Below are positions 14,666 to 49,220 of a stretch of DNA of 64,000 nucleotides, one piece after another. Under the pieces are notes generated by a model. The model worked only from the letters and a program-made list of their open reading frames with translations, did no database searches and was not told the origin of the DNA. The stretch lies in IMG/VR virus record IMGVR_UViG_3300046323_000587, positions 124,001-188,000 of that record; one strand, given 5' to 3'. The number at the start of each line of letters is the position of its first letter. The first letter of the stretch is position 1. The stretch comes from a virus. The position numbers were made by a program, and so were the translations under genes.

Positions 14666-16801
14666 TTATTGTTGTTCAGGATTTCCCCAAGCTCCATAAG
14701 AACTACTAGGACTAAATATAGGTGCTGGACCATTAGCTCCAGGGTAAGTTGTTTGACCAGTAGGAATTCTATATTGATATTGATCTGCATTTATTCCTGC
14801 CCCTCCAGGTCCTTGGGTCATATTAGATATATGCACTGATTGTTTAGATACATTAGACTTTAAACCATCTGTAAGTCTTTGTGAATGTTGATCATTAACA
14901 GGTAAAAATACTTTCGTTTCATACACTTTTGCATCAGTTCTTCCTGTCCATTGAGTTTCTACTTTTCCTTCATCAGTTACTCCTATGTGAGTACCGATAG
15001 GAGTTTTTACTTTATAATTAGGTGTGCCGTCAGGATTTAATTCATAAGAAGCTCCTTTTATAGCTTGTTGAGCTAAAGAGTTATCTCTATCTGAAGCTTT
15101 ACCTACATATTTAAATCCTAGACTTTGTGAAGTGTCTTCATCAATTTTTCCATCTGTATCTACATAATTTACAGTAGCAACATTAAATTTTTGAAAAGTC
15201 AAATCTTGTGGAGCACCTTGTCTAACTAAATAATCTTTAACATTTTGTTGACCTTCTGCTGTAAATGTATTATATTTTTGAGGTTCTTTATCAAATACAG
15301 ATTCTTTTATTTTAAGGTATGTTTTTGCTGCTTCTTTGTCTGTTGGTAGATATAACATTGAAGAATTAAAATTAGTTGTACTAAGAACAACATTATTTAT
15401 AGGTAGTTGTATATTAGCTCCATACATACCTGCATTTACTGTACTTCCTGCTTCAGCACTTTTTCCCCAATCTGAATTTTGTAACATTTGTAAAGGCATT
15501 ATTTTACCGTTTTTATCTTGCATACCTAAAGCTCCTTTTACAGTACTTGCTAAAGCTTTAAATTTAACTCCATCTACAACAAATTCTTGCATTTCTTGAT
15601 TCATTAAACCATTTCCGTGAGCTTGATGAAGACCAATTTCTTCTGTTAATTCTTGTCCTCCTGCACCTCTTCCTGAATGTAAGTTACTATAACCCATATC
15701 AATATTTTGAGCAGTCAAAGATTCTGTTTTAGTAGTCTTTTTAGCATTACCATAATCTTGCAATCTTTTAATAGCTGCAACTTCAAGATTCCAATTCATT
15801 AATTGAGCTTTTTCTTCTTCTGACATATTATCTTTAACACCTTCATTAAGATTTATGCCAGAGACTGCAATACGACCAGAAAGTTGATCATTTAATATTT
15901 GACTTTTAACCGCATCCCAATCAGCTTCATCTATATAACCAAATATTGCATTTTTAAATGCTTGTACTTGACCTTTTGGTCCTTCATTAGTTTCACGACC
16001 TCCTGCATTACGTTGAGTACCTGCTGCAATTTGACCAGAAGCAACTTGACCAAATACGCTCAATAGAGTATTATCAGATTTACTTCCACTGGTTTCTATA
16101 TGAGATAATAGTTTTACAACTTTATCTTGAACTTCGCTCATTCCTTTAACATATCCAATAGTTTTATTTAGATCTGGATTAGTTACAGAACCTTTGTAAT
16201 CAAATTCAGTTTTAAATTCTCCTACTGTCATCAAATTACCATATATAGAATCTGGTTTATTTCTATCTAATAAATAAGTGGCATAAGGAACTTCATTGTA
16301 TTTATTTAATGTCTTGTCCCATACAATTACTTTACCATCTTTTGCCATAACAGAACCTTGTGCTTTACGAGATTCAGCTGACTTCCATTGTTCTTCTGTT
16401 TCTTTTTGTTGTCTTAATAAAGTATTAATTTCATCAGGTTGAACTGTTGCGTCTCTCATTAATCTTTTACCTTTATTAGTTTTGAGAGCCATATAATTCA
16501 TATTATCTAATTGATTAATCTTTTGTTGTTTTTGAGCAATGTAAGCATCAACAGCAGCAGTATGTCCTTTTCCGTATAATTCTTTAAGCATATCTTTATC
16601 TAATAAAGAAGATAAATCTGGTGCTTCTGTACGCTTTGTTTGAGCAATATCTTCAACTCCAATCATAGGAACCCCCATACCAACATTAGGCAATTGAGAT
16701 ATAGTTTCAGGTATATACGTATATGATTGATAAGCTCCTCCGGATTGATATTTACTCAAAGGTTTTTTAATCGATTTTAAACTTTTATATAATGATTTCA
16801 T
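14666..16801 (-). CDS. Tagged virion cargo or structural protein, 711 aa
   Basis: I do not recognise the family. The N-terminus is basic (MKSLYKSLKSIKKP) and runs into SKYQSGGAYQ, an N-terminal copy of the GG tag shared by many neighbours. The next 130 residues are helical. The rest is mixed and beta-rich, with Gly/Asn/Thr-rich segments typical of virion proteins and a Pro/Gly/Ser-rich C-terminal tail. It lies between the giant helicase protein (73 bases downstream) and a small gene upstream, in the run of presumed ejected proteins. A terminator-like hairpin sits about 70 bases before its ATG and may lower its expression. A virion protein is likely from position, tag and size; no enzymatic motif was seen. 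Confidence 0.75.
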   Translation of the reverse strand: MKSLYKSLKSIKKPLSKYQSGGAYQSYTYIPETISQLPNVGMGVPMIGVEDIAQTKRTEAPDLSSLLDKDMLKELYGKGHTAAVDAYIAQKQQKINQLDNMNYMALKTNKGKRLMRDATVQPDEINTLLRQQKETEEQWKSAESRKAQGSVMAKDGKVIVWDKTLNKYNEVPYATYLLDRNKPDSIYGNLMTVGEFKTEFDYKGSVTNPDLNKTIGYVKGMSEVQDKVVKLLSHIETSGSKSDNTLLSVFGQVASGQIAAGTQRNAGGRETNEGPKGQVQAFKNAIFGYIDEADWDAVKSQILNDQLSGRIAVSGINLNEGVKDNMSEEEKAQLMNWNLEVAAIKRLQDYGNAKKTTKTESLTAQNIDMGYSNLHSGRGAGGQELTEEIGLHQAHGNGLMNQEMQEFVVDGVKFKALASTVKGALGMQDKNGKIMPLQMLQNSDWGKSAEAGSTVNAGMYGANIQLPINNVVLSTTNFNSSMLYLPTDKEAAKTYLKIKESVFDKEPQKYNTFTAEGQQNVKDYLVRQGAPQDLTFQKFNVATVNYVDTDGKIDEDTSQSLGFKYVGKASDRDNSLAQQAIKGASYELNPDGTPNYKVKTPIGTHIGVTDEGKVETQWTGRTDAKVYETKVFLPVNDQHSQRLTDGLKSNVSKQSVHISNMTQGPGGAGINADQYQYRIPTGQTTYPGANGPAPIFSPSSSYGAWGNPEQQ

Positions 16802-16871
16802 AATTTTTCTTTTATAGTCTTATTGATTATAAACTTATTCTTATAAATATAACAAATTTTGTTATAAACAC

Positions 16872-16902
16872 AAAAATCCTCACTAATCAAAGCAAGGATT
16901 TT
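16872..16902 (-). terminator. Intrinsic terminator between the 113-aa and 711-aa genes
   Basis: On the minus strand the stem AAAATCCT pairs with AGGATTTT around a 14-base loop, and the 3' arm runs into a short T-run (AGGATTTTTG). It lies in the 169-base gap after the stop of the 113-aa gene. The gap also contains a weaker inverted repeat, ATAAC/GTTAT, near 16848-16866. Confidence 0.6.
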
Positions 16903-16970
16903 ATAATATAAATTGTTACAATAATTAGTTATTTTTTAGATTACTGTAATTCAAATAACTTTGATATTTC

Positions 16971-17312: not shown

Positions 17313-17342
17313 TTAGATTTGGATTTAAATTGGTATTATAAT

Positions 17343-18509
17343 TTAATTGCTTGGTCTATTAGTTGGTTGTCCAAAATTATCTTTTGTAATTTTTTTTGTA
17401 GTAGGATTTCTATTCCAACCATCAATAGTATCAGTTTTTGATTCTGTAGTTCCTTCATAATGGTATTTTACTCCTGTAACTCCTTTATTACCTGACCTAA
17501 TAAAATCATCAAAAATAATTCTTCCAGAAGATCCGTTTGATTTATTATTGTTTTTATTATTATTGTTGTTTTTATTATTATTATTATTATTATTATTAAT
17601 AACAGTATTATTAGAAGGCACTTTATTAGGTACTTTATTGTCTGTTGTATTACTAGGAGTATTTGAATTATTATTTGTATTATTTACAACTGGTTGAACA
17701 GGAGTTGGAGTTAGAGTTGGTACTGGAACTGGTTTTGGAGTTATTGTATTACTGATATTAGAGTTAAGAGGTGTAAAAGTATTTGTAACTTCTTTTGTTC
17801 CGTATGAAGTAGTTTGAGGTTTTTCTATTGTACCTATTTGATACATTCCACCAGTAGACGATTTTGCAGCAACTACTCCTGTATTTTTATTAGTTTTATC
17901 ATAAATAGTAGAAATATTGCTATTTTGCATTGGTAGTTTACCTCTTAATACATTTGCTGTACCTGTACCTACTGTTCTAGCAACTTCTTTACCTTTTTCT
18001 GTAAGAGTGTCATAATTATCTATTTCAGTGGCAGCTTTTTGAAAAAATTTACCATTATTATAATTAGAAGTACTCGTACTTAGTTTAGGAGTGAAAATTG
18101 TTCCATTAGCTAACCTATATTTACCATTACCTATTGATTCAGCACCTTGTGGAATAGCTCCTCCATCTTCAAAGAATTTAATATCATATAATTCACCATC
18201 AACTCGACCACCTTTTAAGAATTTACTAAAAGATTTAATTAATTTCATTCCTTTACGAGCTTGAAGGGATTCTGCTTGATAATCTGTTTCTTGTTCAGTA
18301 TAATCATAATCAGGAAGTGTGTCTTGATTTAATGTATCATAACTAATTTGATCTTCTGCTTGTTCATTAAATTGATTGTATTCTTGTTCAGTAGGATTAG
18401 AAGGATCGTATTGTTGAGTAGTATTTAATGGAGTATAACTAACAGTATTGCTAGTTATACCACCACTTTGATACTTATTTTTGTATTTTTGTGATTTCCA
18501 ATTATACAT
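17343..18509 (-). CDS. Tagged cargo protein with poly-Asn linker, 388 aa
   Basis: Unrecognised family. The N-terminus reads WKSQKYKNKYQSGGIT, an N-terminal GG tag. Two more GG segments follow near residues 100-125 (KFLKGGRVDG and KFFEDGGAIP). The region about 235-330 is low-complexity: Pro/Thr repeats, then long Asn runs interrupted by Lys. An ordered Gly/Arg-rich C-terminus (RIIFDDFIRS and after) closes the protein. The composition suggests a flexible linker between two small domains. It lies 22 bases downstream of the 369-aa gene in the cargo run. The poly-Asn stretch is encoded by an ATT/AAT microsatellite and is probably length-variable. Confidence 0.7.
   Translation of the reverse strand: MYNWKSQKYKNKYQSGGITSNTVSYTPLNTTQQYDPSNPTEQEYNQFNEQAEDQISYDTLNQDTLPDYDYTEQETDYQAESLQARKGMKLIKSFSKFLKGGRVDGELYDIKFFEDGGAIPQGAESIGNGKYRLANGTIFTPKLSTSTSNYNNGKFFQKAATEIDNYDTLTEKGKEVARTVGTGTANVLRGKLPMQNSNISTIYDKTNKNTGVVAAKSSTGGMYQIGTIEKPQTTSYGTKEVTNTFTPLNSNISNTITPKPVPVPTLTPTPVQPVVNNTNNNSNTPSNTTDNKVPNKVPSNNTVINNNNNNNNKNNNNNKNNNKSNGSSGRIIFDDFIRSGNKGVTGVKYHYEGTTESKTDTIDGWNRNPTTKKITKDNFGQPTNRPSN
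17541..17603. repeat. ATT/AAT microsatellite encoding poly-Asn
   Basis: The plus strand reads almost pure TTATTATTG/TTTTTATTATTA trinucleotides for about 60 bases. On the minus strand this is a run of AAT/AAC Asn codons broken by AAA Lys codons within the 388-aa gene. Changes in length would be multiples of three and would not break the frame. Confidence 0.85.
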
Positions 18510-18531
18510 TTGATTAGTTTAATTAGATTAA

Positions 18532-19654: not shown

Positions 19655-19698
19655 TTTTTGTTATTTACTATTTTGATTATTAAACTAATTATTTAAAA

Positions 19699-22900: not shown

Positions 22901-24599
22901 CAGCCCATTCTCTTAGACCCCATTTCTTACCTTGTAATTCATCTAATTCTTTTTGGTAGTTAGATTCTCCAATAGACCCTAAAGCACCTGTAACAGCAGT
23001 TACAATGTTAGCTCCTGGTACAAATCCTGCAACATCATTTACAGTTCTAGCTATTTTAGCACCTGCAATAATATTTTTAAGTTCTTCAATTCTTTTAGAT
23101 TTATTATCAGTTGGAGTTGAAACAATTTTACTCTCTGTTTTAGGTGTAGATGCAACACCTACATTTTGTTTAGTAATTTTATTACTTGGAGTCCATCTAA
23201 GTGCACTACCTAATTGATATTTCACAACACCTCCTTTTTTCTTTAATGGAATATATGTAGCACTTTTTCTATTACCCCAATCAACTTGACCAGCAGTAAA
23301 AGGAACTTTATAATTTGCATATTGTGAAGCTATATCTATTATATTTCTAGGTTTACCTATAAATTGTTTATTAATAGCATCTTGAGCAATTTTTGCTTCT
23401 TCTTCTTTTCTACGATAATCTTCTTCAGTTAATTTTCCTACAGAACGTCTCATATCTTCATTCATTACTTGTTCAGCCTTACGTTTAGCGTCTCTTTCTG
23501 CTTTTCTTTTAGCATCAGCAGCTTTTTGAGCATCAGTTCTTGTATCTACTCCAGTTCCTCTACTTCCATCTGTTTTAGTTCCTGTACTAGAACTTCCAGC
23601 TCCGCCTAATAATACACCAGCAGTTTTCTTTTGGTCTTTAACTGGAACCCAAGCAGCATTTGGACCATCTTTTTTTAGTCTAGCGTAAATAACTGCTTTA
23701 TTACTTTCTTTACCTCTATCAGCAGCAGATAAATTTTGATTTGTAGATTCATCGTAAGATACTTTATACTCATAAGGATCTTTTGATGAATTTCTTGAAG
23801 TAATTGATGTAGTAAGTTTATCTACATCATCAAAAGAGTTTACAGCACTATCTGAATGAAAATCATTTATAGGTATTGTTGTATTGGTATCAGTAGTAGA
23901 AGTAGTATCAACAGGTTTATCATCAACTTTTGATTGTGGAACAGTTGTACTTACAGGAGATTCTTCAAATAATACATTACGACCTAGTTTTTGTAAATCA
24001 AGATTAAATTTTTTAGTTCCTCTTTCAAGTGCTTTCTTTTTAGAAGTAAAAACACTTCCCCACAACTTACCAAGAGTTGATTTACCTTCTAATTCAATAT
24101 CTTTAAAATCTTTGCCTAATTTTCTTTTTTCTTTTCCAGTTAAAGATTGTGTATATTCTCCAAGAGTTCTGTTTCCTTGTGTACCTAATTGATATTTTCC
24201 TCTACGATCTTTTGTTATACCGAATTTATTATTAGCTAAATCAATTCTTCTAAAAGACTCTCTGTCAGCTTTAGATAAATTATCGTCACTCACTCCTTCA
24301 ACTTGCATATCATCTTGCAATACTTCATTATAACCTTTTAAAACTGTTTTTTGTTCTTCATCAGTAAGAGCATCATAAGCAGCTTTATCAGAATTGTAAT
24401 CAGTACCCAATCTTTTTAATTTTCCTGGTCTAGAAGGGTCTGGAATCCAATAACCTTCTCTGACTAATTTTTTAGAATTATCTATCGTTCCAATAGAACC
24501 TACATTGCTATTAGTAGCTATATCACCTTCTAATGTACCTCCAGGATTATATTTTCTTTCATTATTCAATTTATTTTTTAAATCTTTATAATTTTTCAT
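19941..24599 (-). CDS. 1552-aa tagged internal virion protein
   Basis: A large probable ejection protein. It carries four copies of the GG tag: N-terminal ERKYNPGGTLEG, internal KKKGGVVKYQLG (about 455) and FRKGGIIKYENPAG (about 960), and C-terminal SKYGGKVNNKYKW. Two Ala/Gly-rich hydrophobic helical regions lie near 520-610 (VPGANIVTAVTGALG) and 715-760, possible membrane-active segments. Two short repeats occur near 1088 and 1131 (NAYGVTIDGITPEQ, NAFGVDIAGITPKQ). The last 350 residues are an uninterrupted Gln/Ala/Lys-rich helical domain, like T7-type ejection proteins in character but without recognisable homology. The tag copies divide the chain into blocks, consistent with either processing sites or docking sites. 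Confidence 0.75.
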   Translation of the reverse strand: MKNYKDLKNKLNNERKYNPGGTLEGDIATNSNVGSIGTIDNSKKLVREGYWIPDPSRPGKLKRLGTDYNSDKAAYDALTDEEQKTVLKGYNEVLQDDMQVEGVSDDNLSKADRESFRRIDLANNKFGITKDRRGKYQLGTQGNRTLGEYTQSLTGKEKRKLGKDFKDIELEGKSTLGKLWGSVFTSKKKALERGTKKFNLDLQKLGRNVLFEESPVSTTVPQSKVDDKPVDTTSTTDTNTTIPINDFHSDSAVNSFDDVDKLTTSITSRNSSKDPYEYKVSYDESTNQNLSAADRGKESNKAVIYARLKKDGPNAAWVPVKDQKKTAGVLLGGAGSSSTGTKTDGSRGTGVDTRTDAQKAADAKRKAERDAKRKAEQVMNEDMRRSVGKLTEEDYRRKEEEAKIAQDAINKQFIGKPRNIIDIASQYANYKVPFTAGQVDWGNRKSATYIPLKKKGGVVKYQLGSALRWTPSNKITKQNVGVASTPKTESKIVSTPTDNKSKRIEELKNIIAGAKIARTVNDVAGFVPGANIVTAVTGALGSIGESNYQKELDELQGKKWGLREWAGAAGDLALEGVGIVPFANWFTKGKKVVEAGQTASKLVDTAKDASKLSDKAQKIKDLKDARNLAKETLNEANLARKEALQAKKIDSNVSIPEVPVELSMNVYNAGKNLDQVRSQYRRGLDIVGSGLGTIAKGAKDLGVGAGKGAFRYLGKAATHPVGMVGLGALSGINTYQTASNLYDKSQTPEGLDWRDVADASQGLTGLAGNIKDLHRIGRRNQISKAVDGVTHKEASSPEFQPNTPWKKDFEKYSKDWTNNLSMPSLPNMERVKKLRDAVADKFKSQPKYTYEPNDKPKANEPEVVKDDGAKNSVVEPEIVVPNTPKSTPKKTTLSERLGLIDLKVGDLPTRSGTDKKLFELSNIENDLLKPKLSKYEKDLLLLRKKKIEKSIPNFEKLYKFRKGGIIKYENPAGKLPSYLSNNQFMLDLQKRLLEEAKKKSNLATVETKKFTPLSLGNSEQTANKLGTTIGGMDAATQKRKLAYEKAYKNVDFEANNKAQEAYLKNLEAKPINTTSNKTSNKSVQLPISPNAYGVTIDGITPEQQQSAIKINQSVRGSNFVKTDAVTPQYSKNAFGVDIAGITPKQVKYASGTGASSTSTGTAVKRDGDGTTDASSNGTNTATTDANGQQSQQQSAIQGSEGSGNGTKVNSALHGGTDGFDTEGYDEDGNPIDANLKGKDKWFIGKDELKLASDLALSIWNKPVISHRQIIDKQLQGYTPEVGYQQMLQNKADAQSAMALSVRNNMSADPTVNLINASMAQTNLNKANQASNAQIAQKAEQKALSDYQINEQNKLTTTSNQQLNAENLSKEEFEKKTADRQYMLNHARILAGYRDNKFMKDTQAKQAIFKAGQTDQQNQKAQLVSQKIREANKADSAEQTARQNYRMHFEAAQKETDPTRKAQYEKDAKKYEADAELFKKNYEKLTEEANNIQNQNPDNAEQVYQANRQMGKLGGTRKMSSIATIKQQQEQQPISKYGGKVNNKYKWMRTVAK

Positions 24600-24699: not shown

Positions 24700-24712
24700 A
24701 TTAACTAATTTA

Positions 24713-25081
24713 TTATACTCTTGGACGAATTTTAAATTTAGTTTTTCCTCCAAATCTTTGCATAGGTGCTGGTGGATTTTGAGTAGCTGGAGATGCTTGT
24801 GGTTGTCCTTGTGGTTGAGCAGCTGGAGCTTCTTGTGCAGGTTGGTCTTCACCTCCACCTTGTTGTTGAATCATTTCCATAAACATTGTAGCACCTTGTT
24901 TTAAAGCATCACAATTATTTTGAGACAAACCAGATTGAAATGCAGCTAAAATTTGTTCCATTGGACTTCCACCTTGTTTTTGACCTTGTGGTTGTTCCAT
25001 TGATTGTTCTGGAGCTTGACCTTGTGACATTGGTTGTTCTACTGCACCACCTTCTTGAAATTTTCTAATAAATGTTCTCAT
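24713..25081 (-). CDS. Small doubly tagged Gln/Pro-rich protein, 122 aa
   Basis: Unrecognised. The N-terminus, MRTFIRKFQEGGAVEQ, is one of the cleanest N-terminal GG tags, and the C-terminus (MQRFGGKTKFKIRPRV) is a C-terminal version, so both halves flank a tiny core. The core is one helical segment (about 42-73) with a single Cys, embedded in Gln/Pro/Gly/Ala-rich linkers. With tags at both ends and little in between, it looks like an adaptor or spacer rather than an enzyme. It lies between two large tagged proteins and has a tandem decamer repeat in its leader. Confidence 0.7.
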   Translation of the reverse strand: MRTFIRKFQEGGAVEQPMSQGQAPEQSMEQPQGQKQGGSPMEQILAAFQSGLSQNNCDALKQGATMFMEMIQQQGGGEDQPAQEAPAAQPQGQPQASPATQNPPAPMQRFGGKTKFKIRPRV

Positions 25082-25147: not shown

Positions 25148-26986
25148 TTAATCTTTTGTGTACTCTGGTTTATTAACATAATCTTGTTTATATAACTCAT
25201 TAGCAATAACTTTACCTAAATTAAAATAATCTTTATCAGATTTACTTTTATTGGCAACTTTAGCTAATTTAACTAATTCTTTTGTTTTAATTCTACTAAA
25301 AATTCTTTCTCCACCTTTAAGTTTCATTTGGTGTTCACCTTTATCATCTAAAAGATATAAATTTTGTTTAGATTGTTTACCACCTTCTTGATAATATTTT
25401 TGTTGTAATTGCTTATAAATCATTCCTCCTTGTTTTTGTTTAGGTAAATAAATAAAATGTCCTCCTGTTTTACTTCTAGCGTCCCATTTATCTAAATCTT
25501 CTTTTTCTTGGTAAGGGTCTTTTCTATATATACCATTATCTATAATCCATAAATTTAATCCGTCTGTTTTTTGTTCTTTTTTGAAGGCTTCAAAAGCAGC
25601 TTTTAATTGATCACTATTTCCTGTAACTATTTTATATGCTTTATTATCAGGAGTAGCAATCATTAGTTTATTGTAATCTTTGTGTTCAGGCAAAGCAATC
25701 TTTTTATTATATTTTGTAGAATCTTTTGGTTTATAATAAACTAGGCCTTCTTTATCATCCCAATCTATTTTTTCTGCAAATTTAGGGCTATATGTTTGAG
25801 ATACAAGATAATCATTATCAAAATCATTATATTGACCTAATTTTAAATTACCTGTTTTTTGATTTACTCCAATTAAATAAGCATCTTTTTCAGTTTCTTT
25901 ATCGCTATTTAAAAAACTACGAAAATTTTCAGGCTCTTTAATTTTAGATTTATGTGTAAATGGATTAAATGTAGTAATATAAGTACCTTCGCCTAATGCT
26001 CCTTGACCAACAGTAAATTTATCTTTTTCTGTTTTATTTCTTACAATAAAAGAAGGCTTCTTTTCTTCAGTTTTAGTATCTTCAGTTTTAACTTCCTCTT
26101 TTTTACGTTCCTCAATAACTTTTACTAGATTAGTTCTTTTGTTGTTATCTTCTTCTTTAACTGTATTATCCACTACGACAATAGGTTTTTCAACTTTTCC
26201 TAATCTATAATCAACTCCATTATGTTTAAATGTAACAGCTCCATCACTATCAATATTTACATTAGATTTGTTACCTGTACTTAATTCACTTAATCTTGCT
26301 TGATAAGCGTTTTCTAATTCTTTTCCTTTTTTAGTAGGTTTTTTTACAATATATTTACCAGAAGAATTAACTCTATCTTGTTCATCTTTTGTAGATAAAT
26401 ATCTTTGCATTTTAAACTTACCTTCTGGTAAATCGTATTCAGTAGAATAAGTTTTTAATTTATCTCCTAAGTGATATTTCAATATTCCACCTTTTTTATT
26501 CTTTTCAACAAGATTCTTTAATTTTTTATTTTTATTAGGTTTAACATCAAATACTAAACCATCATTAATACCTCCTTCAGTTATCTCATAACCTCCATTT
26601 CCAGAATTTTTTGGTACTTTTACTTTAACTATTTCAGAATACTTATCTGGAACATAAGGCGTATATTTCTTCATAAGTAATTTATCTCCTAAATTTATTT
26701 TATTATTTATATTTAATTCTAAGGTATGTCTCCCTTTTAATTTATATTCTCCACTATTTCTAGGTGCTTTAATAATATCTGTAACAAGATAATTATCATC
26801 TAAACCAGCTAATAATAAAGGTATAGTAGTATCTTTCATCGTTATATCAGAAACATTATAAAAAAACATACCTTTACTATTATCTAGTTTATGATGATTA
26901 GACAACCCAATTAAAGATTCTTTTTTATTTTCAGGTATCTGTATTATATATTTTATCTTGTTTATATAACCTGATTCAGTTTTCAT
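25148..26986 (-). CDS. 612-aa tagged cargo protein
   Basis: Unrecognised family. The N-terminal 160 residues look beta-rich, with repeated hairpin-like segments. Next comes an internal tag, KKGGILKYHLGDKL (about 165), a Lys/Glu-rich linker (about 275-310), and a mixed domain of about 200 residues. A double tag (KQGGMIYKQ and KYYQEGGKQSKQ) lies near 520-540, followed by a C-terminal domain (LKGGERIFSRIKTKELVKLA). The last domain is similar to the C-terminus of the next gene (646 aa), so the two are partial paralogs. The gene starts two bases after the stop of its upstream neighbour. A virion cargo role is inferred. Confidence 0.7.
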   Translation of the reverse strand: MKTESGYINKIKYIIQIPENKKESLIGLSNHHKLDNSKGMFFYNVSDITMKDTTIPLLLAGLDDNYLVTDIIKAPRNSGEYKLKGRHTLELNINNKINLGDKLLMKKYTPYVPDKYSEIVKVKVPKNSGNGGYEITEGGINDGLVFDVKPNKNKKLKNLVEKNKKGGILKYHLGDKLKTYSTEYDLPEGKFKMQRYLSTKDEQDRVNSSGKYIVKKPTKKGKELENAYQARLSELSTGNKSNVNIDSDGAVTFKHNGVDYRLGKVEKPIVVVDNTVKEEDNNKRTNLVKVIEERKKEEVKTEDTKTEEKKPSFIVRNKTEKDKFTVGQGALGEGTYITTFNPFTHKSKIKEPENFRSFLNSDKETEKDAYLIGVNQKTGNLKLGQYNDFDNDYLVSQTYSPKFAEKIDWDDKEGLVYYKPKDSTKYNKKIALPEHKDYNKLMIATPDNKAYKIVTGNSDQLKAAFEAFKKEQKTDGLNLWIIDNGIYRKDPYQEKEDLDKWDARSKTGGHFIYLPKQKQGGMIYKQLQQKYYQEGGKQSKQNLYLLDDKGEHQMKLKGGERIFSRIKTKELVKLAKVANKSKSDKDYFNLGKVIANELYKQDYVNKPEYTKD

Positions 26987-37602: not shown

Positions 37603-39731
37603 TATTTCTTTTTCTTAATTGATTTATCATATTTCTTCTTTATAGCTTCAAATAAATTACGTTGTCTATCAGTCAATTTTTTTCCTTTAATAGCTCCTTC
37701 TTTTAAACTATTAGTAACAATATCTTTACTCATATTAGTTTTATATTCTTTATCATTAGCTTTAATATTAAATTTCTTTAATGATTTAAGTGTACCTCCT
37801 GATTTATAAGTATATTGTAATGGAATTCCTTTATTAAATTTAGTAGGTTTATTAATATTAGGAAATATCTTTTGGTAGTCTAAAATTTCTCCTAAATGAC
37901 TTCTCATTAAAGATGTTCCTTGAGGGTGTTTTGAAGTAGATTTAAGTTTCTTTTTAATAGAACCTCCTTTTGAATGTTGTTCTTTTTGATTATATAAACC
38001 AGAACCAATACCAACAGTAGAACCTCCTATTAATGCTTTATGTATATTAGGATTACTCCAATCCCATTTACCAAGATGTTCACGGAATAGGGATTTGAAT
38101 TGAGTTGGTTTTCTTACTGCAATAGATTCAGCATTTGTAGAAAATTCTTTTCCAATTACTGCATCATAATCTTTATTTCTAGTAGGCTCAGTCAAACTTT
38201 CTTTATTTAAACTATTTATTTGATTTTCTATTTCTTGTTGTTCTTTTAATTTAGCTGTGAATTCTTTCTTTCTTTCATTCATCCAACTATTTTTTGATCT
38301 ACCTGTATTATTTAATATATTTGGTAAATCAGGATAGCCTTTTATGTGAGATTCATAATAACTGTCTAAAGCTTTATCAAACTCTTCTAAATTATCTGAA
38401 TTCTTACCAAATAATTCTTTTGGAGTTTCTCTAATAATTTTATTAGTTTTGTCTGTAAGTTGTTTTTTATATTCTTCTGATGTTCCGTAAAAAGTTCTTA
38501 CAGATTCGTTATCTAAATTTCCAAAACTTCCAGCTGGTTGATCTGGTCTCTCAATATTATTAGTAAAAGGGGTTTTAGTACTTACTAATAAAGGAGAAAT
38601 ATGTTTAGAATTTTTTACATATTTATCAGGTATATATTTATGAGCATTGACACCTTCGTAAATTGATAATGGGTCAAATCTTTTAAGAGATTCTTCATAT
38701 TGTTCTTTTAATTCATTATTTTTTCTATTTAAATGTAAATCTCTTATTATAGAACTTGCTTCTGGAGTATAAGTGTAAGCATATTTTTTATCTGGAGTAG
38801 CCCAAAATAGTTCTAAATTTTTACTATATTCTGGTTTTACACGTACTTCTCCTTTTTCGGCTCTTTCTGAATTTGATTTACTTCCACCTCTATAATAAAT
38901 ATCTTGTACTTTACTACCCTTTAATTCTTTTTGTGCTTGTTCTGATTTAGTAGAAAGATAAAGTGCATCTGCTATATCATCATCTTTTGTATTTAAATCT
39001 TTATAATACTCTCTAGCACCAGGAATTTCATCTTTTATTTGTCCATACAATTTACTACCTCTATCAACTTCAATACCTTGTTCTTTTGCTTGTTTAAGAA
39101 AATCAGTAAACATTTCAGTATTACTTACATAATCTTTAATAACAGGTTTAAATGTCTTTGCAGCATCTCCAGCTAATCCAAATAATGGTAATACTCCTGC
39201 TAATGTCAATGGTGAAATTTTACCTGTTGATTTATATTCTTTCCAAGCATCAGAAGCACCTTTAACATCTCCAATTACTGGTAACATATCTGCAACAGTA
39301 TTAACAATAGATTTACTTACAGCTTTGTTATCCATTGTTTTATCAAGTTTATCTTTTGTATTAGGAACATTCACATTACCTAATGTAGCAGTAGTATTCT
39401 TTTGTCTAGGTAAAAGATTAGCTTCTTGTGATTGTCTTTGAGACATACCAAATCCACTAGCATTACCGCCACGTTCTTTTTCTATACGTCTCTGAATAGC
39501 TAATCTCGTACTCATATCATCACCTTGTTCTTCTGATAGTTTTTCAATCTCTTGTTGTTGTTCTCTTTTATCAGATAATAAACCTTTATTGATTTTAAAT
39601 TCAAAATAGCTGATTGCTCTACTATTTTTATGCTTAATAGCATTAGCATACATATTTCTTTCAACTGGTGAAAGATGCTTATTAGCACCAACTTGTAATG
39701 CTTGTTTATCTCCGTCTTGATATTTATTCAT
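37602..39731 (-). CDS. Polyvalent protein with probable ADP-ribosyltransferase domain, 709 aa
   Basis: The N-terminus (MNKYQDGDKQ and ANKHLSPVERNMYANA) is paralogous to that of the 332-aa protein at 44654-45652. Residues about 145-210 include a hydrophobic segment (LTLAGVLPLFGLAGDAAK). The central part matches the pattern of phage polyvalent ADP-ribosyltransferases: DIYYRGG near 280, LFWATPDKKYAYTYT near 312, and a late DYDAVIGKEF with IAVRKPTQFKSL near 524-545. Two tags follow (HSKGGSIKKKLKS and YKSGGTLKSLKKFNIK), with a Lys-rich end. If the ART assignment holds, it would modify a host protein using NAD. The family match is from motif memory; the residues RSE/HYE were not rigorously placed. 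Confidence 0.55.
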   Translation of the reverse strand: MNKYQDGDKQALQVGANKHLSPVERNMYANAIKHKNSRAISYFEFKINKGLLSDKREQQQEIEKLSEEQGDDMSTRLAIQRRIEKERGGNASGFGMSQRQSQEANLLPRQKNTTATLGNVNVPNTKDKLDKTMDNKAVSKSIVNTVADMLPVIGDVKGASDAWKEYKSTGKISPLTLAGVLPLFGLAGDAAKTFKPVIKDYVSNTEMFTDFLKQAKEQGIEVDRGSKLYGQIKDEIPGAREYYKDLNTKDDDIADALYLSTKSEQAQKELKGSKVQDIYYRGGSKSNSERAEKGEVRVKPEYSKNLELFWATPDKKYAYTYTPEASSIIRDLHLNRKNNELKEQYEESLKRFDPLSIYEGVNAHKYIPDKYVKNSKHISPLLVSTKTPFTNNIERPDQPAGSFGNLDNESVRTFYGTSEEYKKQLTDKTNKIIRETPKELFGKNSDNLEEFDKALDSYYESHIKGYPDLPNILNNTGRSKNSWMNERKKEFTAKLKEQQEIENQINSLNKESLTEPTRNKDYDAVIGKEFSTNAESIAVRKPTQFKSLFREHLGKWDWSNPNIHKALIGGSTVGIGSGLYNQKEQHSKGGSIKKKLKSTSKHPQGTSLMRSHLGEILDYQKIFPNINKPTKFNKGIPLQYTYKSGGTLKSLKKFNIKANDKEYKTNMSKDIVTNSLKEGAIKGKKLTDRQRNLFEAIKKKYDKSIKKKK

Positions 39732-39736
39732 TGTCG

Positions 39737-41884
39737 TTATTTATTTAATAATTTTATATTCTTTAAGAACTTCTGTTTATCAATATTAATCTTATCTTTC
39801 TTTAAATCTTTTAATACATAATCAGAGATTTCTTTTCTATTAGACTTATTTTTCACTTTATTAAGAATTGTAGTAATTCCTGAAATCATTTCTTTAATGT
39901 CTGATGTATTCTTTCCTCCTTTACTATACTTTAAAGGTTTTTTAAGTAACAACTCTTTTGGTTTCTTTACTACTTTGCCTACATAATCTATCAAATCAGG
40001 TTCAATAATAGAGTGAGCTTCGTGTTCAACTGTACCAGGAATTTTATATCTTAGATTGTTCCCAATTTTATCGTACAATATTTGTTTTGGTAGAAAAGAA
40101 AAATCATTAGTATTTTGAATACCAGTAAAGTATTTTGTTAATTCTGGAATATTATCCATTATCCAATCAGCTGAATTTTGATTTGCATTATGATAATTAT
40201 CAATAATTTCTTTTGTATGGCTTGTTTGAGGTTCTCTATTTAATTCATTTCCAATATGAGTTGTTTTACTTACTTTTTGTAAAGCGTGAGGAATTTCACT
40301 AATTAAATCTTGATAAGAATTTGGATTAACTGTAATCTTGTGTTCTATAGGGGTATAAAAAGCTCTTGTATTATTTTTATTTAATTCAATTTCTGGATTT
40401 CCTGATTCTTCTAACAGTTGTTTAATCCTAACTTTATGAGAAGGAAGTAAATTTGAGTTAGACAGCAATTTATTTAAATTATCTTTTGTCATTTGTTTTA
40501 TAGAACTTAACTCTATCTTACTTCCTTTTTGAAATTTCATTAAAAATTTAAGTTTGTTTCCTTTTTTATATATTTGATTTTGTTGTTCTGGTGAACTAGA
40601 CTTATTTAAATAAGAATTTATTCCAACTGCTGGTAAAGCTACTGCTGGTAATTTATTCATTGCAGAAACAAATTTTTTCTTGTCTTTAAGGTAACTTAAT
40701 AAATCTTTTTTATCTTGTGAGAAGTTATTAAAGTTATTGTCTATATCTTGTTCTGTAAGTAATTTATAAGGATCTTTAGGATTTATTTGATGTCTAATTT
40801 CTTGCATTCTTGCGGATATCTCTGTAGGTTTTAAAAGATATTCAGCATTTCTATAGTTTTTATCTTTATCTAAAATTTCATTAAATTCATATAAAGGTTT
40901 ATCTGAATGTAATTTTTTATAATTATCTCGAATATTGTCTAAATCAGTATTTCCATTTTCTGAAAATCCGTCAAGCAATAATTTTTCTTGTTTTGGGTAT
41001 ATTAAATTATTACTTTGAGTTCTATTATGATCTAATTCATGTATTCCAGTATTTTTTATATCTGGCATACTAGGATCTAAAAAAACATTTGTTTCTGCTT
41101 TAACTATTTTATCTGTTGTTTTATTTAAATTAGGTATAGCAGAATATATTTCTTTATTTTCTATTGGAGTATCTCCTAATAAAGGATAGTGTACGCCCAT
41201 ATTACCTTGTAATATATCTTGATCCTTAGTAAGTTGTGGTGTAATTGCATTAGTTCTTTTTCTCATTTTAGCTATATCTTCATTTATATACCCTACTGCT
41301 AAGGCCCTTCTTTCAAATTCTGGACTATTAATTTGTTTTCTGTATGCTTCTGTACCAGCATTTAATTCTTTTTGTGCAGAAGATTTAGTTAAATTATTTT
41401 TTAACTCTAAAGCAGCTTCTTTTACTTCTTTACCAAATTGATTTAATTTCTTTTTAGTTACTGTAACAACTGGTTTTACTACATTTTTAGCTAAATTGGT
41501 TATTTTTTGTACACCTTTTTGAGCTAATTTTTTAACTACTGCTTTACCTAATAAACTTGTACCTCCAGTTAAAGCAGTTTCAGCTATTTGTTCAAAAGTA
41601 TCATCTGGATTAATTTTACCTGTTGCCATACCAGTTTTAGCATCAATTAAGCCTTTATTAATTTTATCTTGTCTAGAGCCTTCTACAACTCTATTTGAAG
41701 CTTCTTTAGCTTTTTGTATCAATTCCCTATTAAGAAATACTCCTACATCATTTTTACCTTTACTAGGATTGTTTTGAGATTCCCATAAAGAACGTGGTTT
41801 GTTGTTTCCTGTACGTTTAATATATTGTTCATAAGTCTCTACTGTTTTAGCAGGAAACTGAAATTTCTTGTATGATTTAATCAT
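39737..41884 (-). CDS. Polyvalent HExxH metallopeptidase-like protein, 715 aa
   Basis: N-terminal SYKKFQFPAKTVE is a half tag. Residues 80-150 contain a hydrophobic to basic segment (GGTSLLGKAVVKKLAQ). The first catalytic-looking domain has GIHELDHNR near 283 (HExxH zinc site), with a distal PTEISARMQEIR that may supply the third ligand. A double tag in the middle (KKGNKLKFLMKFQKGSK, about 450) separates a second domain with SEIPHALQ and VEHEAHSIIEP, resembling another metal-site arrangement. A last tag, LKYSKGGKNTSD, precedes a basic helical tail. Substrate unknown: virion protein processing or cell-wall/host protein cleavage are both possible. The gene overlaps the next upstream gene by 8 bases. 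Confidence 0.6.
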   Translation of the reverse strand: MIKSYKKFQFPAKTVETYEQYIKRTGNNKPRSLWESQNNPSKGKNDVGVFLNRELIQKAKEASNRVVEGSRQDKINKGLIDAKTGMATGKINPDDTFEQIAETALTGGTSLLGKAVVKKLAQKGVQKITNLAKNVVKPVVTVTKKKLNQFGKEVKEAALELKNNLTKSSAQKELNAGTEAYRKQINSPEFERRALAVGYINEDIAKMRKRTNAITPQLTKDQDILQGNMGVHYPLLGDTPIENKEIYSAIPNLNKTTDKIVKAETNVFLDPSMPDIKNTGIHELDHNRTQSNNLIYPKQEKLLLDGFSENGNTDLDNIRDNYKKLHSDKPLYEFNEILDKDKNYRNAEYLLKPTEISARMQEIRHQINPKDPYKLLTEQDIDNNFNNFSQDKKDLLSYLKDKKKFVSAMNKLPAVALPAVGINSYLNKSSSPEQQNQIYKKGNKLKFLMKFQKGSKIELSSIKQMTKDNLNKLLSNSNLLPSHKVRIKQLLEESGNPEIELNKNNTRAFYTPIEHKITVNPNSYQDLISEIPHALQKVSKTTHIGNELNREPQTSHTKEIIDNYHNANQNSADWIMDNIPELTKYFTGIQNTNDFSFLPKQILYDKIGNNLRYKIPGTVEHEAHSIIEPDLIDYVGKVVKKPKELLLKKPLKYSKGGKNTSDIKEMISGITTILNKVKNKSNRKEISDYVLKDLKKDKINIDKQKFLKNIKLLNK

Positions 41885-42668
41885 TGTTGTCTAATTTAAA
41901 TTTATATAAAGAAAATAATTTTCCTCCTTTTGAGTAAGCAGGTATTACAAATGCAGCTCCAGAAAACCCTTTTGCATAAGTATTGTAATCTTTCCACTGA
42001 GCTGTAGACAATTGATTTTTACTATTTGCTTTTGGTTTTGCTGAATATCTTCCCATATCTTGATAAGTAAAATGCAGATCTTTTGGATTTAATTCATAAT
42101 CTTTAATAATTTGTTCTCCTTGTTCTTTTAAAACTTCTGGAATTCCAGATACATCTATACCTATTTGTTTACCATTTTTATCAGTAAAGAGATAAGTTAC
42201 GCTTCCTCCACTAAATCTAGAAAAATTTTGATTTCCTGTACTAGATATACTTGTTTCTTGACCTTTTTTTGTTGGAATATAATTAGATTTTTGTCCAATT
42301 TGCCAACCTGTAGACTTTCCTTTATTATTCCAGTCTATGTTTGCAAAAGAGTTAGATCTAACTGGTAATTTACTATCGTAACCTTCTTCGTCTAAATATT
42401 TTTTGTTATTTAAATCAATTCCTTTTATATCTTTAAATTTTTTATACCTAACTAAATATTCTCCATTGAGTTGTTTTTTATGTTGAGCTATATAAGTATC
42501 GGGAGTTTGTGGAATATCTGGTAAAAATATATCTTCGTACTTAGATTTTACTGGACCACTTTTCCAATCACTATGTTGTTTTGTATTTTTTTGATTTGGT
42601 GTAATGTCTCCGTCCATAATAAAATGAGATACACCTAATACATTATTTAATGTACTATCTTTAGACAT
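41877..42668 (-). CDS. C-terminally tagged protein, 263 aa
   Basis: Unrecognised family. The protein is polar, with a Gly/Ser/Thr-rich middle (SSTGNQNFSRFSGGSVTYLF) and a C-terminal alpha/beta part, ending AYSKGGKLFSLYKFKLDNND, one of the clearest C-terminal tags. Its ATG overlaps the stop of the broken gene upstream, so the two were once a coupled pair. No catalytic residues could be picked out. The tag places it with the presumed packaged proteins. Confidence 0.65.
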   Translation of the reverse strand: MSKDSTLNNVLGVSHFIMDGDITPNQKNTKQHSDWKSGPVKSKYEDIFLPDIPQTPDTYIAQHKKQLNGEYLVRYKKFKDIKGIDLNNKKYLDEEGYDSKLPVRSNSFANIDWNNKGKSTGWQIGQKSNYIPTKKGQETSISSTGNQNFSRFSGGSVTYLFTDKNGKQIGIDVSGIPEVLKEQGEQIIKDYELNPKDLHFTYQDMGRYSAKPKANSKNQLSTAQWKDYNTYAKGFSGAAFVIPAYSKGGKLFSLYKFKLDNND

Positions 42669-44595: not shown

Positions 44596-44653
44596 TTTTA
44601 TTATTTGTTTAAATGTTAAGAGAGTGTTATGATGTAAATATAACTAAAATAAT

Positions 44654-45652
44654 TTATCTTCTTTTGTCGAAACCAAATTTTTTTTGTTCTAGTAACAAAT
44701 ATATATAAGGATTTTCGTCTTGTGTATACTGTTTTTGTAAGGAACTTAATTTATTTAAAATTTCTTCTTTAGAATTTTTATCTATATTTCTTAACTTATC
44801 AAAATCTTTGCTTAAAATTTCTTGTAAATTAGTTTTAAATACAGCTGGAGATCTTTTTTCTAATTCTGGCAATAAATTGAGGTTATTGATATAATCATCT
44901 TTAAGTTTTATTACATTTTTTAAATTATTTTTATCAGATAAAATTTTTAAAAAATTGTCGCTATCTGTAGCAGATTTTGACATTTCAGATAAACCTATAT
45001 CTGAAATATTTTTTATTGGATTAAATTTAGAGCTGATTTGCGAAACTAGTTTATTTTTTAACTGTTTCCCTAAAATAGGTATAGTTTTTGCCCCAACAGT
45101 TATTAGTGATCCTACATCTGTCACTGGTTCAACTAAATTACTTACACCAGATATAGTATTCTCTAATGTATGTTGTTTATTAGCTTCATTTCTTTTTTTA
45201 TTGTATTGGGTTTGTTGATAAAGCTTTAAATCAGGGTCTTTAGTTTTATTTATCTTACGTTGAGCAACATAGTCTTCCTCAGTCTTTTCTGGACGGCCTG
45301 ACACAGCTTCTTTAATATCTGATACAGCTAAACTAATAGAATTTCCTGATAAAGTATTATATAAAGGAATATAAGCTTTCCAAGAATTTGCATTAGATTG
45401 TTTTTCTACTAAATTTGTACCGTCTCTTTGATCTCTTCCAGATAATTCAGAAAGACGTTCAATTTCAGATTGTTGTTCTTTATTATCTTTAACTAATCCT
45501 TTATTAATCTTATTTTCAAAGTAATTTATTAATTTACTATTCTTTTTAGCAACTGCTCCTCTATACATTGCTTGTTCAGTAGCTGATAAATGTTTTTGAG
45601 CACCTTTATTCAAACCACCTAATTGATGTTTTAATATTGATTTTAATTTCAT
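44654..45652 (-). CDS. N-terminally tagged protein, paralog of the ART-like protein N-terminus, 332 aa
   Basis: The start MKLKSILKHQLGGLNKGA is a clean N-terminal tag. The next 60 residues (AQKHLSATEQAMYRGA and INYFENKINKGLVKD) match the beginning of the 709-aa ART-like protein closely, down to EQQxEIExLSE. The remainder differs: a hydrophobic segment near 192-215 (VGAKTIPILGKQLKNK) and a helical Lys/Leu/Asn-rich C-terminus. It looks like a common delivery head joined to a different payload, the exchange pattern of polymorphic effectors. The payload function is not recognised. Confidence 0.65.
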   Translation of the reverse strand: MKLKSILKHQLGGLNKGAQKHLSATEQAMYRGAVAKKNSKLINYFENKINKGLVKDNKEQQSEIERLSELSGRDQRDGTNLVEKQSNANSWKAYIPLYNTLSGNSISLAVSDIKEAVSGRPEKTEEDYVAQRKINKTKDPDLKLYQQTQYNKKRNEANKQHTLENTISGVSNLVEPVTDVGSLITVGAKTIPILGKQLKNKLVSQISSKFNPIKNISDIGLSEMSKSATDSDNFLKILSDKNNLKNVIKLKDDYINNLNLLPELEKRSPAVFKTNLQEILSKDFDKLRNIDKNSKEEILNKLSSLQKQYTQDENPYIYLLLEQKKFGFDKRR

Positions 45653-45656
45653 TGTT

Positions 45657-45974
45657 TTATAATATAAATTTTAATAAAGAATTTAACTTACCTCCTTGTT
45701 TCCAAGTTTTAAATCTTTTATGCCAATATAAAGGACTAAATGGGTCTTTTGCTTTTGAAGAATCTTTACCTCCCATTCTATTCCAGAAGTTATTACGTCT
45801 ATCTTTATTTTTATGTTGAGTAAAATCTTCCATTCCACGAAATCCTCCTGAAACTATTTTATATTTATCACCTTTCTTTGCTAATACCTGCCACTTTTTA
45901 CTTGAATCAGCTGGAGCTGTTTTCTTAACTCCTACTTTATTAAATCCTTTCTTTATATATCTTTCTGGTATCAT
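45657..45974 (-). CDS. Small basic C-terminally tagged protein, 105 aa
   Basis: A compact, very basic domain with KWQVLAKKGDKYKIVSGG, MEDFTQHKNKDRRNNFW, RMGGKDSSKAKD and PFSPLYWHKRF. The strong motif density suggests a conserved family; similar small proteins seem familiar from crAss-like and giant viruses, but I cannot name it with certainty. It ends TWKQGGKLNSLLKFIL, a textbook C-terminal tag immediately after the conserved domain. It lies 14 bases downstream of the metallopeptidase gene. Nucleic-acid binding is plausible from charge only. Confidence 0.7.
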   Translation of the reverse strand: MIPERYIKKGFNKVGVKKTAPADSSKKWQVLAKKGDKYKIVSGGFRGMEDFTQHKNKDRRNNFWNRMGGKDSSKAKDPFSPLYWHKRFKTWKQGGKLNSLLKFIL

Positions 45975-45988
45975 TTTCTATTGATAAT

Positions 45989-46783
45989 TTAATTTATTTT
46001 AAATTTACTTAAAGAAGAAAGTTTAGCTCCTTTCTTAGCATATAATACACTAGATTTTTGTTTGTTGCTTACTAAACCATTCATCATCTCAATAAATTTA
46101 TTATCCTCAAAAGATTTAATTAAATTTCCCAGTTTCAATCCTTTATGTTTTGATTTAATCAATTCTAAATCTTCTAATTTAAACTTATCTTCTGGTTTTT
46201 TGTTAAGAAACTTTCTCATTCCCATTAACTCAGGATATAATTCGTGTTCTTGTCCATTATTAAATTGATCTACTTCTCCAGACTTAGTATAACTTTTAAT
46301 ATAATTCTGTAATTCAGAACTTTCATCAAAATGTGTAGAATGAGTAAATTCGTGAACACTTGTACGAGGAATAGATACAATACCATCACCTAAAAAATCA
46401 TTATATTTCTTAATAGTTTTAGGGAAGACTACAACTTGATGTTTATCTTTTAGGTAAGCTCCTGATACACCTTTATAATGACGTTTAACTTTTTCAATAT
46501 CTTCTTTTGTATATGGTGTATCATTAACAGGAGATTTTAAAAACATTTCTCGTTCTATTTCATCTTCAGGTATAACTGAAACTGTATTTAATTTGTTTTG
46601 AATATTAGATAAAGTTGTATTAGCTTTTTTCTTGTTACCATACAACTTTATCATTTTATCTCTTGTTGTAGGATTATTAAACCAATCTTTTACATAATTA
46701 AGATGTTCTTTTAAATCTGTTTCAGAATTTACAGAAGTATTTTGGACAGATTTTGTAGGTTTATCTTTGTCAAATTTGTTCAT
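45989..46783 (-). CDS. HExxH zinc metallopeptidase-like protein with C-terminal tag, 264 aa
   Basis: The zinc-site motif SVHEFTHSTH is at residues 142-151 (HEFTH 144-148), preceded by a beta-strand segment (VSIPRT) as in many metzincin- or gluzincin-like folds. A downstream ELYPELMGMRKF near 185 may supply the third ligand. The N-terminal 130 residues are helical and probably form a prodomain or substrate-recognition region. The C-terminus AKKGAKLSSLSKFKIN is a tag with one Gly replaced by Ala. The layout matches the split gene at 47770-49220, so they are paralogs. There is no signal peptide, so delivery with the virion is more likely than secretion. Substrate unknown. Confidence 0.7.
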   Translation of the reverse strand: MNKFDKDKPTKSVQNTSVNSETDLKEHLNYVKDWFNNPTTRDKMIKLYGNKKKANTTLSNIQNKLNTVSVIPEDEIEREMFLKSPVNDTPYTKEDIEKVKRHYKGVSGAYLKDKHQVVVFPKTIKKYNDFLGDGIVSIPRTSVHEFTHSTHFDESSELQNYIKSYTKSGEVDQFNNGQEHELYPELMGMRKFLNKKPEDKFKLEDLELIKSKHKGLKLGNLIKSFEDNKFIEMMNGLVSNKQKSSVLYAKKGAKLSSLSKFKIN

Positions 46784-46828
46784 AGCATAAATTTGTTTTA
46801 TATTGATTTTATTTGATTTATACGATTT

Positions 46829-47086: not shown

Positions 47087-47106
47087 AATTATTAAATTAT
47101 TATTAA

Positions 47107-47766: not shown

Positions 47767-47769
47767 TGA

Positions 47770-48255
47770 TTAAAATTTAATTTTATTAAATGAAGATAGT
47801 ATACCTCCTAATTTAAAAGTCTTATTCATAATTTTTTTAATATTTCTTTTGTTTGTCATTTCGTCAGGTTTAATTTCTCTATTAAACAAAGTATTTGCTA
47901 TTTTAGCAAAGAATTTAGGTTGTTTTTTTGTACTATGATATAATTCATAAGTATCTGTATCTATATCTTCAGAGTTATTTTCTGCTAAATTTTTCAACTC
48001 TTTCCAATTTTTGTTTTTAAATTTTTTTTGTGAATTGTATTTACCTAAATCCTCTAAATTAAACATTGTAGTATATTTTCTAGCCAACCTTTCATCAGGA
48101 ATAGATAAATAATCTTTATAAGGTTTTGTTGGTTCTCCATTTAACTGTTCACTTATTTTTTGTTCGATAGCTAAATTTTTATGTAAATTTTTAATATAAG
48201 CATTTTCATCAGATTCTTTTTTTCCATAGGTAGATTCTAATATATATATATATTT
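47770..48255 (-). pseudogene. C-terminal part of split metallopeptidase, out of frame
   Basis: This frame opens at 48255 inside the TA repeat and has no ATG of its own until MFNLEDLG; a TTG at 48087 is the only earlier near-start I checked. It encodes about 160 residues, including SIPDERLARKYTTMF, which lines up with the third-ligand region of the neighbouring metallopeptidases, and it ends TFKLGGILSSFNKIKF, a C-terminal tag. It is best read as the continuation of the gene at 48237-49220. If the frames are joined, the full protein is about 485 aa. Confidence 0.7.
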
Positions 48256-49220
48256 TTATCTGAAAGATTGTTTCCTCCTCCTGTAGCTGCGTGTGAAAAT
48301 TCGTGAGTACCTAAATATTTATATATATCTTTATAAGTTCTTTCTACATCTTTAGATTTATTGTAGGGACCTACTTCCATAGGAAAAACAAATTCTTTTT
48401 TTGAAGGTAAGTTAATTTTTTTTGTATTATTAGAAAAAATTTGTACGTTAGGAGATGTTAAATTGTCTTTTGGGTAATCTAGCCCTGTATCTTCTAAATT
48501 TTTTAATCTTGTACCTATTTGTTTATCATTATATCCAGCAACTTTATTTAATTTTTGACCTCTTTTCGAAGTATAAAAATCTATCAATCTTTTTTTATCG
48601 GGTTCGTAAGAATCTTTAAAAGATTTTTTATCGGTATAATTTTTTAAATTATAGCCCTCTAATTTTGTAGGTAAAGGTTGTTGAGATTTACCAGTTAATC
48701 TAATAATTTCAGAATCTACATTTTCTTTATGCCAACCAACAAGTTTTTGTTTATATTCTTCAGCATTATTTTTTGCCTCTTTTAAATTTTGAGTTATTTT
48801 TTCTATTTGTTGTTTATCTATAGGATCTAAAGAGTAGTTTTTTGGATCTTCCAATTTTTTAAAAGATTCTTTCCTATTATAAAAATCTAAATCTTTTTCT
48901 AAGTCTTTTACATGATTTGTATACAATGTATTAACATCTGTTGGAGTTTTTTGTTCGGCTTTTAAATTTTCTAATTCATTAAGCAAATTTTCTCTATTCA
49001 TTTTATTCCAAGGGTCTACATTTTCTTGAAATTCTTCTTCAGGTGTATCATAAGTAGGAATATCTGGAGCGTAATAATTATTATATTTATCTTTTGAGTC
49101 TTTTTTAATATTTCTTTTTCCTTTAATATCTACATTTTTTAGTACAATAGTTGAATTTTGTAAAGTTCCATCAGGTTCTTGGTATTTTTTAATTTTTTTA
49201 AAACTATTTAGTTTTTTCAT
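48237..49220 (-). CDS. HExxH metallopeptidase-like protein, N-terminal part before frameshift
   Basis: The start LNSFKKIKKYQEPDGTL is a degenerate N-terminal tag. A long helical, Lys/Glu-rich region leads to YKYLGTHEFSHAATGGG, with the zinc motif HEFSH at 306-310. Only 17 residues later the frame runs into a TATATATATATA stretch (read Ile-Tyr-Ile-Tyr) and stops with TAG at 48237. Related proteins continue for about 110-150 residues after HExxH, and that continuation is found in another frame directly downstream. As sequenced, the product lacks the third ligand and the tag, so it is probably inactive unless the frame is restored. Confidence 0.7.
   Translation of the reverse strand: MKKLNSFKKIKKYQEPDGTLQNSTIVLKNVDIKGKRNIKKDSKDKYNNYYAPDIPTYDTPEEEFQENVDPWNKMNRENLLNELENLKAEQKTPTDVNTLYTNHVKDLEKDLDFYNRKESFKKLEDPKNYSLDPIDKQQIEKITQNLKEAKNNAEEYKQKLVGWHKENVDSEIIRLTGKSQQPLPTKLEGYNLKNYTDKKSFKDSYEPDKKRLIDFYTSKRGQKLNKVAGYNDKQIGTRLKNLEDTGLDYPKDNLTSPNVQIFSNNTKKINLPSKKEFVFPMEVGPYNKSKDVERTYKDIYKYLGTHEFSHAATGGGNNLSDKNIYIY
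48238..48257. repeat. TA dinucleotide run plus T5 at a frameshift point
   Basis: The plus strand reads TAATATATATATATATTTTT. Gain of one base, or loss of one TA unit, would join the HEFSH frame to the downstream frame. The upstream limit is fixed by a stop in the second frame at 48256-48258 and the downstream limit by the TAG at 48237, so the shift must lie within this repeat. Confidence 0.85.

Follow-up and report, generated by a model that had tools for sequence, protein, structure and literature searches.

The window analysed here, a stretch of 64,000 bases (bases 124001-188000 of the 226,480-bp IMG/VR record IMGVR_UViG_3300046323_000587), encodes capsid, ring and muzzle proteins, a cargo cassette and giant RNA polymerase-like genes, in the same order as in PhicrAss001, and many of its otherwise unrelated proteins share a short basic peptide with the core [ILV]-x-K-[FYHL]-Q-x-G(-G), hereafter the tag. 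Judged from its proteins the phage is a relative of Crassvirales, because Crass-type capsid, ring and muzzle proteins were found in that order. Its major capsid protein (MCP) matched phrog_11589 (major head, crass-type) with E=7e-19, and was 34% and 29% identical to those of two human-gut phages, MT835470 and MT835492, respectively, and about 22% identical to those of named Crassvirales. A ring protein matched CrAss_Ring_2 (E=3e-11), and a protein of 1717 amino acids (aa) was recognized as the muzzle by its profile match (E=1.8e-70) to cluster 27 of the relatives, which itself matches PF25731 (E=1.9e-27). The comparison set contained 16 records with 2,477 open reading frames (ORFs), namely G000, 13 related IMG/VR records (two in part), MT835470 and MT835492. 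During ORF calling, TAG was translated as glutamine wherever this clearly opened up the late genes. It appeared that TAG stands for glutamine in the late genes of most relatives (G002-G020 and MT835492; L007-L009 and L069 onward); the window phage needs no such reading. Because some records are near-duplicates (G000/G001 and G004/G005/G018), the tag counts are partly non-independent, and the tag patterns were tuned in part on the same examples that are counted.

The first-pass annotation had listed 15 tag peptides in the window. All are encoded on the minus strand, as are the sites described below, and all 15 were found where they had been placed: five were C-terminal or nearly so, at a distance of 12 to about 18 residues from the stop, five fell in the first 24 residues and five in protein interiors. 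We added N-terminal sites in the 646-, 709-, 715- and 327-aa proteins, an internal site in the 126-aa protein and C-terminal sites in the 122- and 1552-aa proteins, which brought the count to 16 tagged proteins and bore out the estimate of at least 16. In the cargo cassette, the gene of the 711-aa protein (14666-16801), with N-terminal LSKYQSGG (16736..16759), adjoins a giant RNA polymerase-like gene; its position matches that of cluster 14 in the relatives, members of which also begin with the tag, and its alignment to the profile of that cluster (probability 32%) was merely suggestive. The 388-aa protein (17343-18509) carries N-terminal YKNKYQSGG (18459..18485) and extra aromatic-x-x-GG sites at 18207-18227 and 18159-18179. 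The 1552-aa protein (19941-24599) bears ERKYNPGG at its N-terminus (24537..24560), internal tags at 24183-24200, 23208-23234 and 21681-21713, and C-terminal SKYGGKVNN (19944-20000); a 1554-aa protein in the same place in MT835470 starts MSQAIRKYQTGG. In the 122-aa protein (24713-25081), which is homologous to cluster 26 (hhalign probability 97%), FIRKFQEGG lies at the N-terminus (25046..25072) and RFGGKTKFKIRPRV at the C-terminus (24716-24757). The 612-aa DUF192-like protein (25148-26986; DUF192 E=1.8e-4, below Pfam's cut-off) has internal GGILKYHLG (26465..26491) and a second site, QQKYYQEGG (25379-25405), and its C-terminal part matches cluster 15. The 646-aa protein (26989-28929) carries N-terminal VLKFQLPAG (28867..28893) and internal GGLIKYQKG (28009-28035) and KLRHQEGG (27547-27570), and its C-terminus matches cluster 16 (probability 99%), whose members start MYKKIKKFQSGGG, MRKIMKFQWGN and the like. 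Inside the 126-aa protein (gene 29872-30252), a GKFTEYC...RKMQLGG segment (30046..30189) was located by hhalign to gp45 of PhicrAss001. A patatin-like phospholipase (PF01734, E=2e-24) is encoded at 28916-29818 within the same cassette and has no obvious tag.

Tagged genes are also inserted between the capsid and muzzle genes, and encode topoisomerase IB-like, DUF5754 and HExxH zincin-like proteins as well as unknown proteins of 263, 332 and 709 aa. The topoisomerase IB-like protein (36790-37602; PF01028, E=1.4e-16) has C-terminal GGKLPIYILKYL (36811..36846); the core encoded by this tagged late gene is of the eukaryote/poxvirus type. The 709-aa protein (37602-39731) has N-terminal MNKYQDGD (39708..39731) and a late internal GGTLKSLKKF (37755-37799), and the 715-aa protein (39737-41884) has N-terminal YKKFQFPAK (41846..41872) with internal KGNKLKFLMKFQKG (40523-40564) and LKYSKGG (39914-39934). 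The 263-aa protein (41877-42668) bears C-terminal GGKLFSLYKFKLDNND (41880..41927), and the 332-aa protein (44654-45652) N-terminal SILKHQLGG (45614..45640). C-terminal sites were found again in the 105-aa DUF5754 protein (45657-45974; PF19058, E=4e-9), with GGKLNSLLKFIL (45660..45695), and in the 264-aa zincin-like protein (45989-46783), with GAKLSSLSKFKIN (45992..46030); the HExxH motif of the latter (HEFTH) was read from the sequence and had no Pfam peptidase match. In a peptidase-like gene at 47770-49220, a frameshift separates a 327-aa front (48237-49220, HEFSH), with N-terminal IKKYQEPDG (49167..49193), from an end of roughly 98 aa, with C-terminal GGILSSFNKIKF (47773..47808), which suggests a peptidase-like protein tagged at both ends. 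The accessory proteins of the window had no relatives within the comparison set, and tblastn searches of public phages with the 1552-aa and 105-aa proteins gave zero matches.

The N-terminal form of the tag is statistically very strong and the C-terminal form moderately so. Over the comparison set, K[FYH][QE].GG was seen 57 times, compared with 2.0±1.4 times after residue shuffling and twice when the proteins were reversed, and 32 of these sites lay in the first 30 residues, where 0.23 were expected. Typically the tag is found within the first 5-20 residues, the side N-terminal to GG being the constant one, and some long proteins repeat it internally. The C-terminal form has a separate bias, about [FYW]-[KR]-x-G-G-[KRI]-[LI], with a basic GG-[KRI]-[LI]-x-x-[LF]; its loose pattern was found 48 times against 20±4, and an aromatic residue occupied position -3 of the C-terminal GG in 27% against 17% (p=0.049). 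At the DNA level, the pattern AARTWYCARNNNGGNGG had 41 matches across 27 records and its reversed version 2, and a slightly wider pattern picked out 33 protein clusters, with 76 distinct contexts between them. The glutamine codon was TAG at 14/76 sites. Because synonymous codons vary among the tag sites, selection acts on the peptide. A nucleotide-level signal (GGAGG, Shine-Dalgarno-like) was considered and rejected, since GGA and GGT make up most of the glycine codons, which vary synonymously, and the sites are not followed by a consistent start codon. A 29-base pattern for M-K-x-I-P-K-[FY]-Q-x-G had five matches over 2.9 million viral contigs, three of them already among the relatives. When viral and genome contigs were scanned with a looser DNA pattern of variable gap, the scan proved too permissive and returned mostly redundant families, and only its in-frame crass-like cases were kept. 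A full-text search of open-licence papers for KFQxGG-type core strings returned no paper.

When the density check proposed with the first-pass annotation was run, the hits were concentrated in late cargo genes. In G000, the tag was present in 11/66 late ORFs against 1/168 others, and among the late ORFs in 10/26 of the cargo zone against 1/40 of the rest. For all phages of the set, the strict tag was found in 44/899 ORFs on the MCP strand against 8/1,578 others, the latter including those of fragment G018, which has no capsid gene to fix the strand. As had been claimed for the core head and ring proteins, the capsid, portal, terminase and ring families lack the tag, and so do the muzzle and the RNA polymerase subunits, save for isolated loose matches; early genes are nearly devoid of it. 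The tag is kept at the N-termini of unrelated late families (clusters 26, 14 and 16) across 13-14 divergent relatives, even though the capsid proteins of the tag-bearing phages are merely about 30% identical. Cluster 26 (~105 aa) has N-terminal [KR]F(M)Q-x-GG in 13/13 members, usually with GG[KR]L near the C-terminus; cluster 14 (~630 aa) has the tag in 12/14 by pattern; in cluster 16 it is N-terminal or internal, and in cluster 79 (~1400 aa) internal, while clusters 63 and 44 are tagged too. Besides varying accessory enzymes, the tag marks a syntenic cassette of cargo genes, which lies between those of the muzzle and of the RNA polymerase. Another conserved late family, cluster 41 (L006:7551-8102), lies near the terminase and portal genes at L006 and has a weak chaperonin 10 match (E=8e-4, below Pfam's cut-off).

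The accessory enzymes of the relatives differ from phage to phage. The tag begins an HD-domain protein (MRVIPKYQEGD), a glucosaminidase-domain protein (MKVIPKLQQGN) and a YkuD-like (L,D-transpeptidase) protein, the last as a weak match (MVKKYQKG). In two other crass-like contigs it stands directly after the muzzle gene: L264 (E=1e-57 for ring 1 and 5e-44 for the muzzle) and L233 (E=1e-6 for the C-terminal domain of the muzzle). In L260 (IMGVR_UViG_3300031705_000078), the gene of a Crass capsid (E=8e-22) adjoins three accessory proteins, all of which have a GG-plus-hydrophobic C-terminus and two of which are also clearly tagged at the N-terminus; one of the three looks ADP-ribosyltransferase-like by eye. 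A 1307-aa protein of G008 (L136:9850-13773) apparently fuses two histidine-motif, enzyme-like units, with tags between the units and a gp45-type segment located there as well.

This segment leads to the only tagged protein with a homologue of known location. PhicrAss001 gp45 is cargo protein 1 (C1), a virion component identified by mass spectrometry; cryo-EM resolved part of it, in the tail barrel and on the portal (PMC10172136). The 126-aa protein of the window is homologous to gp45 residues 365-434 (hhalign of cluster 44: probability 99%, E about 1e-18), and its KMQLGG aligns with AFGG 425-428 of gp45. Thus gp45 has a GG motif placed as in the window protein, together with repeated aromatic-x-GG sites, but it is one 842-aa protein without strict KFQxGG tags, unlike the many tagged proteins here; moreover, the window phage carries several accessory tagged enzymes, whereas the sections consulted of the PhicrAss001 report describe none. 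The GKFTEYC...GG segment is internal in gp45 and in the G008 fusion and occurs unfused in the window and in several relatives. This is one case that supports the fission of larger proteins suggested in the first-pass annotation. However, tag halves left behind by fission do not account for the tag in general, since many phages keep the N-terminal tag on the same protein families. The view of the first-pass annotation of the C- and N-terminal forms as two halves of GGKLxSLxKFQxGG suits some internal sites (GGIIKYENPAG and GGILKYHLG; GGIIKYQEPA in MT835470), but a joined element is not required. Three further links to PhicrAss001 were tried and dropped: homology between clusters 15 and 16 (the 612- and 646-aa proteins) and the part of gp45 that binds the portal (domain 425-552), suspected by eye, had no support from hhalign, nor did homology of gp46 to cluster 14, and only 1/2 of the bound gp45 segments starts within 5 residues of an aromatic-GG motif (regex), which was not used as evidence.

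From these sequence patterns, we think it probable that the tag serves as a short sorting signal by which proteins of unrelated structure enter the virions of crAss-related phages. A common internal partner would recognize it during head assembly, so that any protein gaining the tag would be co-packaged and later ejected with the DNA, and the glycines of the tag may serve as a hinge between tag and cargo. The most plausible candidates for the partner are a putative scaffold, the very acidic product of the gene next to that of the capsid, and cargo of the C1 type, which lines the portal and tail barrel. Docking to the scaffold would be the simplest guess, because the putative scaffold is strongly acidic (net charge -36 to -57 in 15/15 phages) and the tags are basic. 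We propose more tentatively that loading may be modular, with one peptide code at either end or internal, one conserved receptor and an open-ended series of effector enzymes, whose genes would join the virion proteome by gaining a tag.

The first-pass annotation had left the choice between docking and cleavage open; docking appears to fit better, though neither is proven. If the tag were a processing site, a phage or host protease would recognize about F-Q-x-G-G and cut behind its Gly-Gly; short propeptides would thereby be lost from N- and C-termini and long cargo polyproteins divided, as happens in maturation of the T4, SPN3US or adenovirus type. There is little conservation after GG at the N-terminal sites, aromatic residues precede GG there and, more weakly, at the C-terminal sites, and the 1307-aa fusion has tags between its units, all of which would suit cleavage; SPN3US head proteins are known to have short cleaved propeptides (PMC10052503). 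However, among 40 late N-terminal tags sought without the demand for GG, 25 had xGG and 11 had a single G or PxG. With GG replaced in 11/40, a Gly-Gly protease is hard to reconcile; KYQEGD, KFQWGN and KFQLPAG are late examples, and KLQQGN and KYQKGK occur in accessory proteins on the opposite strand. In addition, a Pfam scan of ten conserved late families found no peptidase family, the gp45 counterpart of KMQLGG falls within domain 425-552, which was modelled as an unbroken chain, and neither 'cleav' nor 'proteas' occurs in the main text of the crAss001 structure paper. We therefore regard processing as unlikely.

It is less likely still that the tag is an ejection or translocation signal, read on exit of the cargo via the tail barrel or on its passage through the host envelope and not at loading. 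A short, basic, N-terminal peptide would be suitable for this, gp45 is thought to exit N-terminus first (PMC10172136), and some accessory proteins seem to have hydrophobic hairpins. Nevertheless, the tag is also internal and C-terminal, and the RNA polymerase subunits, which likewise need ejection, lack it. The concentration of tags in one gene neighbourhood might instead reflect a sequence habit or linker peculiar to the lineage, which has no shared function and spread when neighbouring cargo genes recombined, and G, K, Q and F/Y would suit flexible basic linkers. We consider this very improbable, because the position is conserved at the N-termini of unrelated families in phages with such divergent capsids and with differing codons.

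Several observations weigh against a virion-sorting function. The strict KFQxGG form is absent from crAss001 and phi14:2, gp45 having the looser aromatic-x-GG sites, and presence in virions is on record only for gp45, the homologue of one tagged protein. Moreover, four viral contigs from phage families outside the crass-like set (L180, L190, L216 and L229) start MKKKIRKFQEGG or MRRIIQKYQEGG; such I-x-K-[FY]-Q-x-GG starts may indicate a broader function or chance. If sorting is nevertheless correct, the tag would permit prediction from sequence of virion-borne, injected proteins among the unknown proteins of crass-related phages, a very abundant group. If it also loads foreign proteins, it would offer a means of packaging proteins of choice into Bacteroidetes phages, and cargo selection by crass-type heads could be tested directly.

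Among known systems, the substrates of diglycine proteases (adenovirus, African swine fever virus and bacteriocin leader type) require Gly-Gly, which the tag does not (11/40). The cargo-loading peptide of encapsulins is short, terminal and on a flexible linker, and loads enzymes into an HK97-fold shell; the likeness is drawn from the general description, and the encapsulin shell is empty, whereas the container here is a DNA-filled phage head. In SPN3US and PhiKZ, several packaged and ejected proteins have N-terminal extensions (PMC10052503), but most of these span 111-254 residues (two span 20-24), compared to about 10 residues for the tags, and a prohead protease that has been identified cleaves them. 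The internal proteins of T4 are highly diverse and injected, and all that they have in common is a short peptide that loads them into the scaffold core (PMC3012670), the capsid targeting sequence (CTS). This sequence is N-terminal and removed by the prohead protease, of which no counterpart was found in the Pfam scan of the ten families, while the tag is also internal or C-terminal and has a different sequence, K-F-Q-x-G-G. As in T4, a short peptide is shared by unrelated proteins, packaging being known here for the gp45 homologue alone. The tag itself is real, and by this analogy we infer that it functions as a counterpart of the CTS, because many unrelated passengers with one shared peptide make the same pattern as the T4 internal proteins with theirs.

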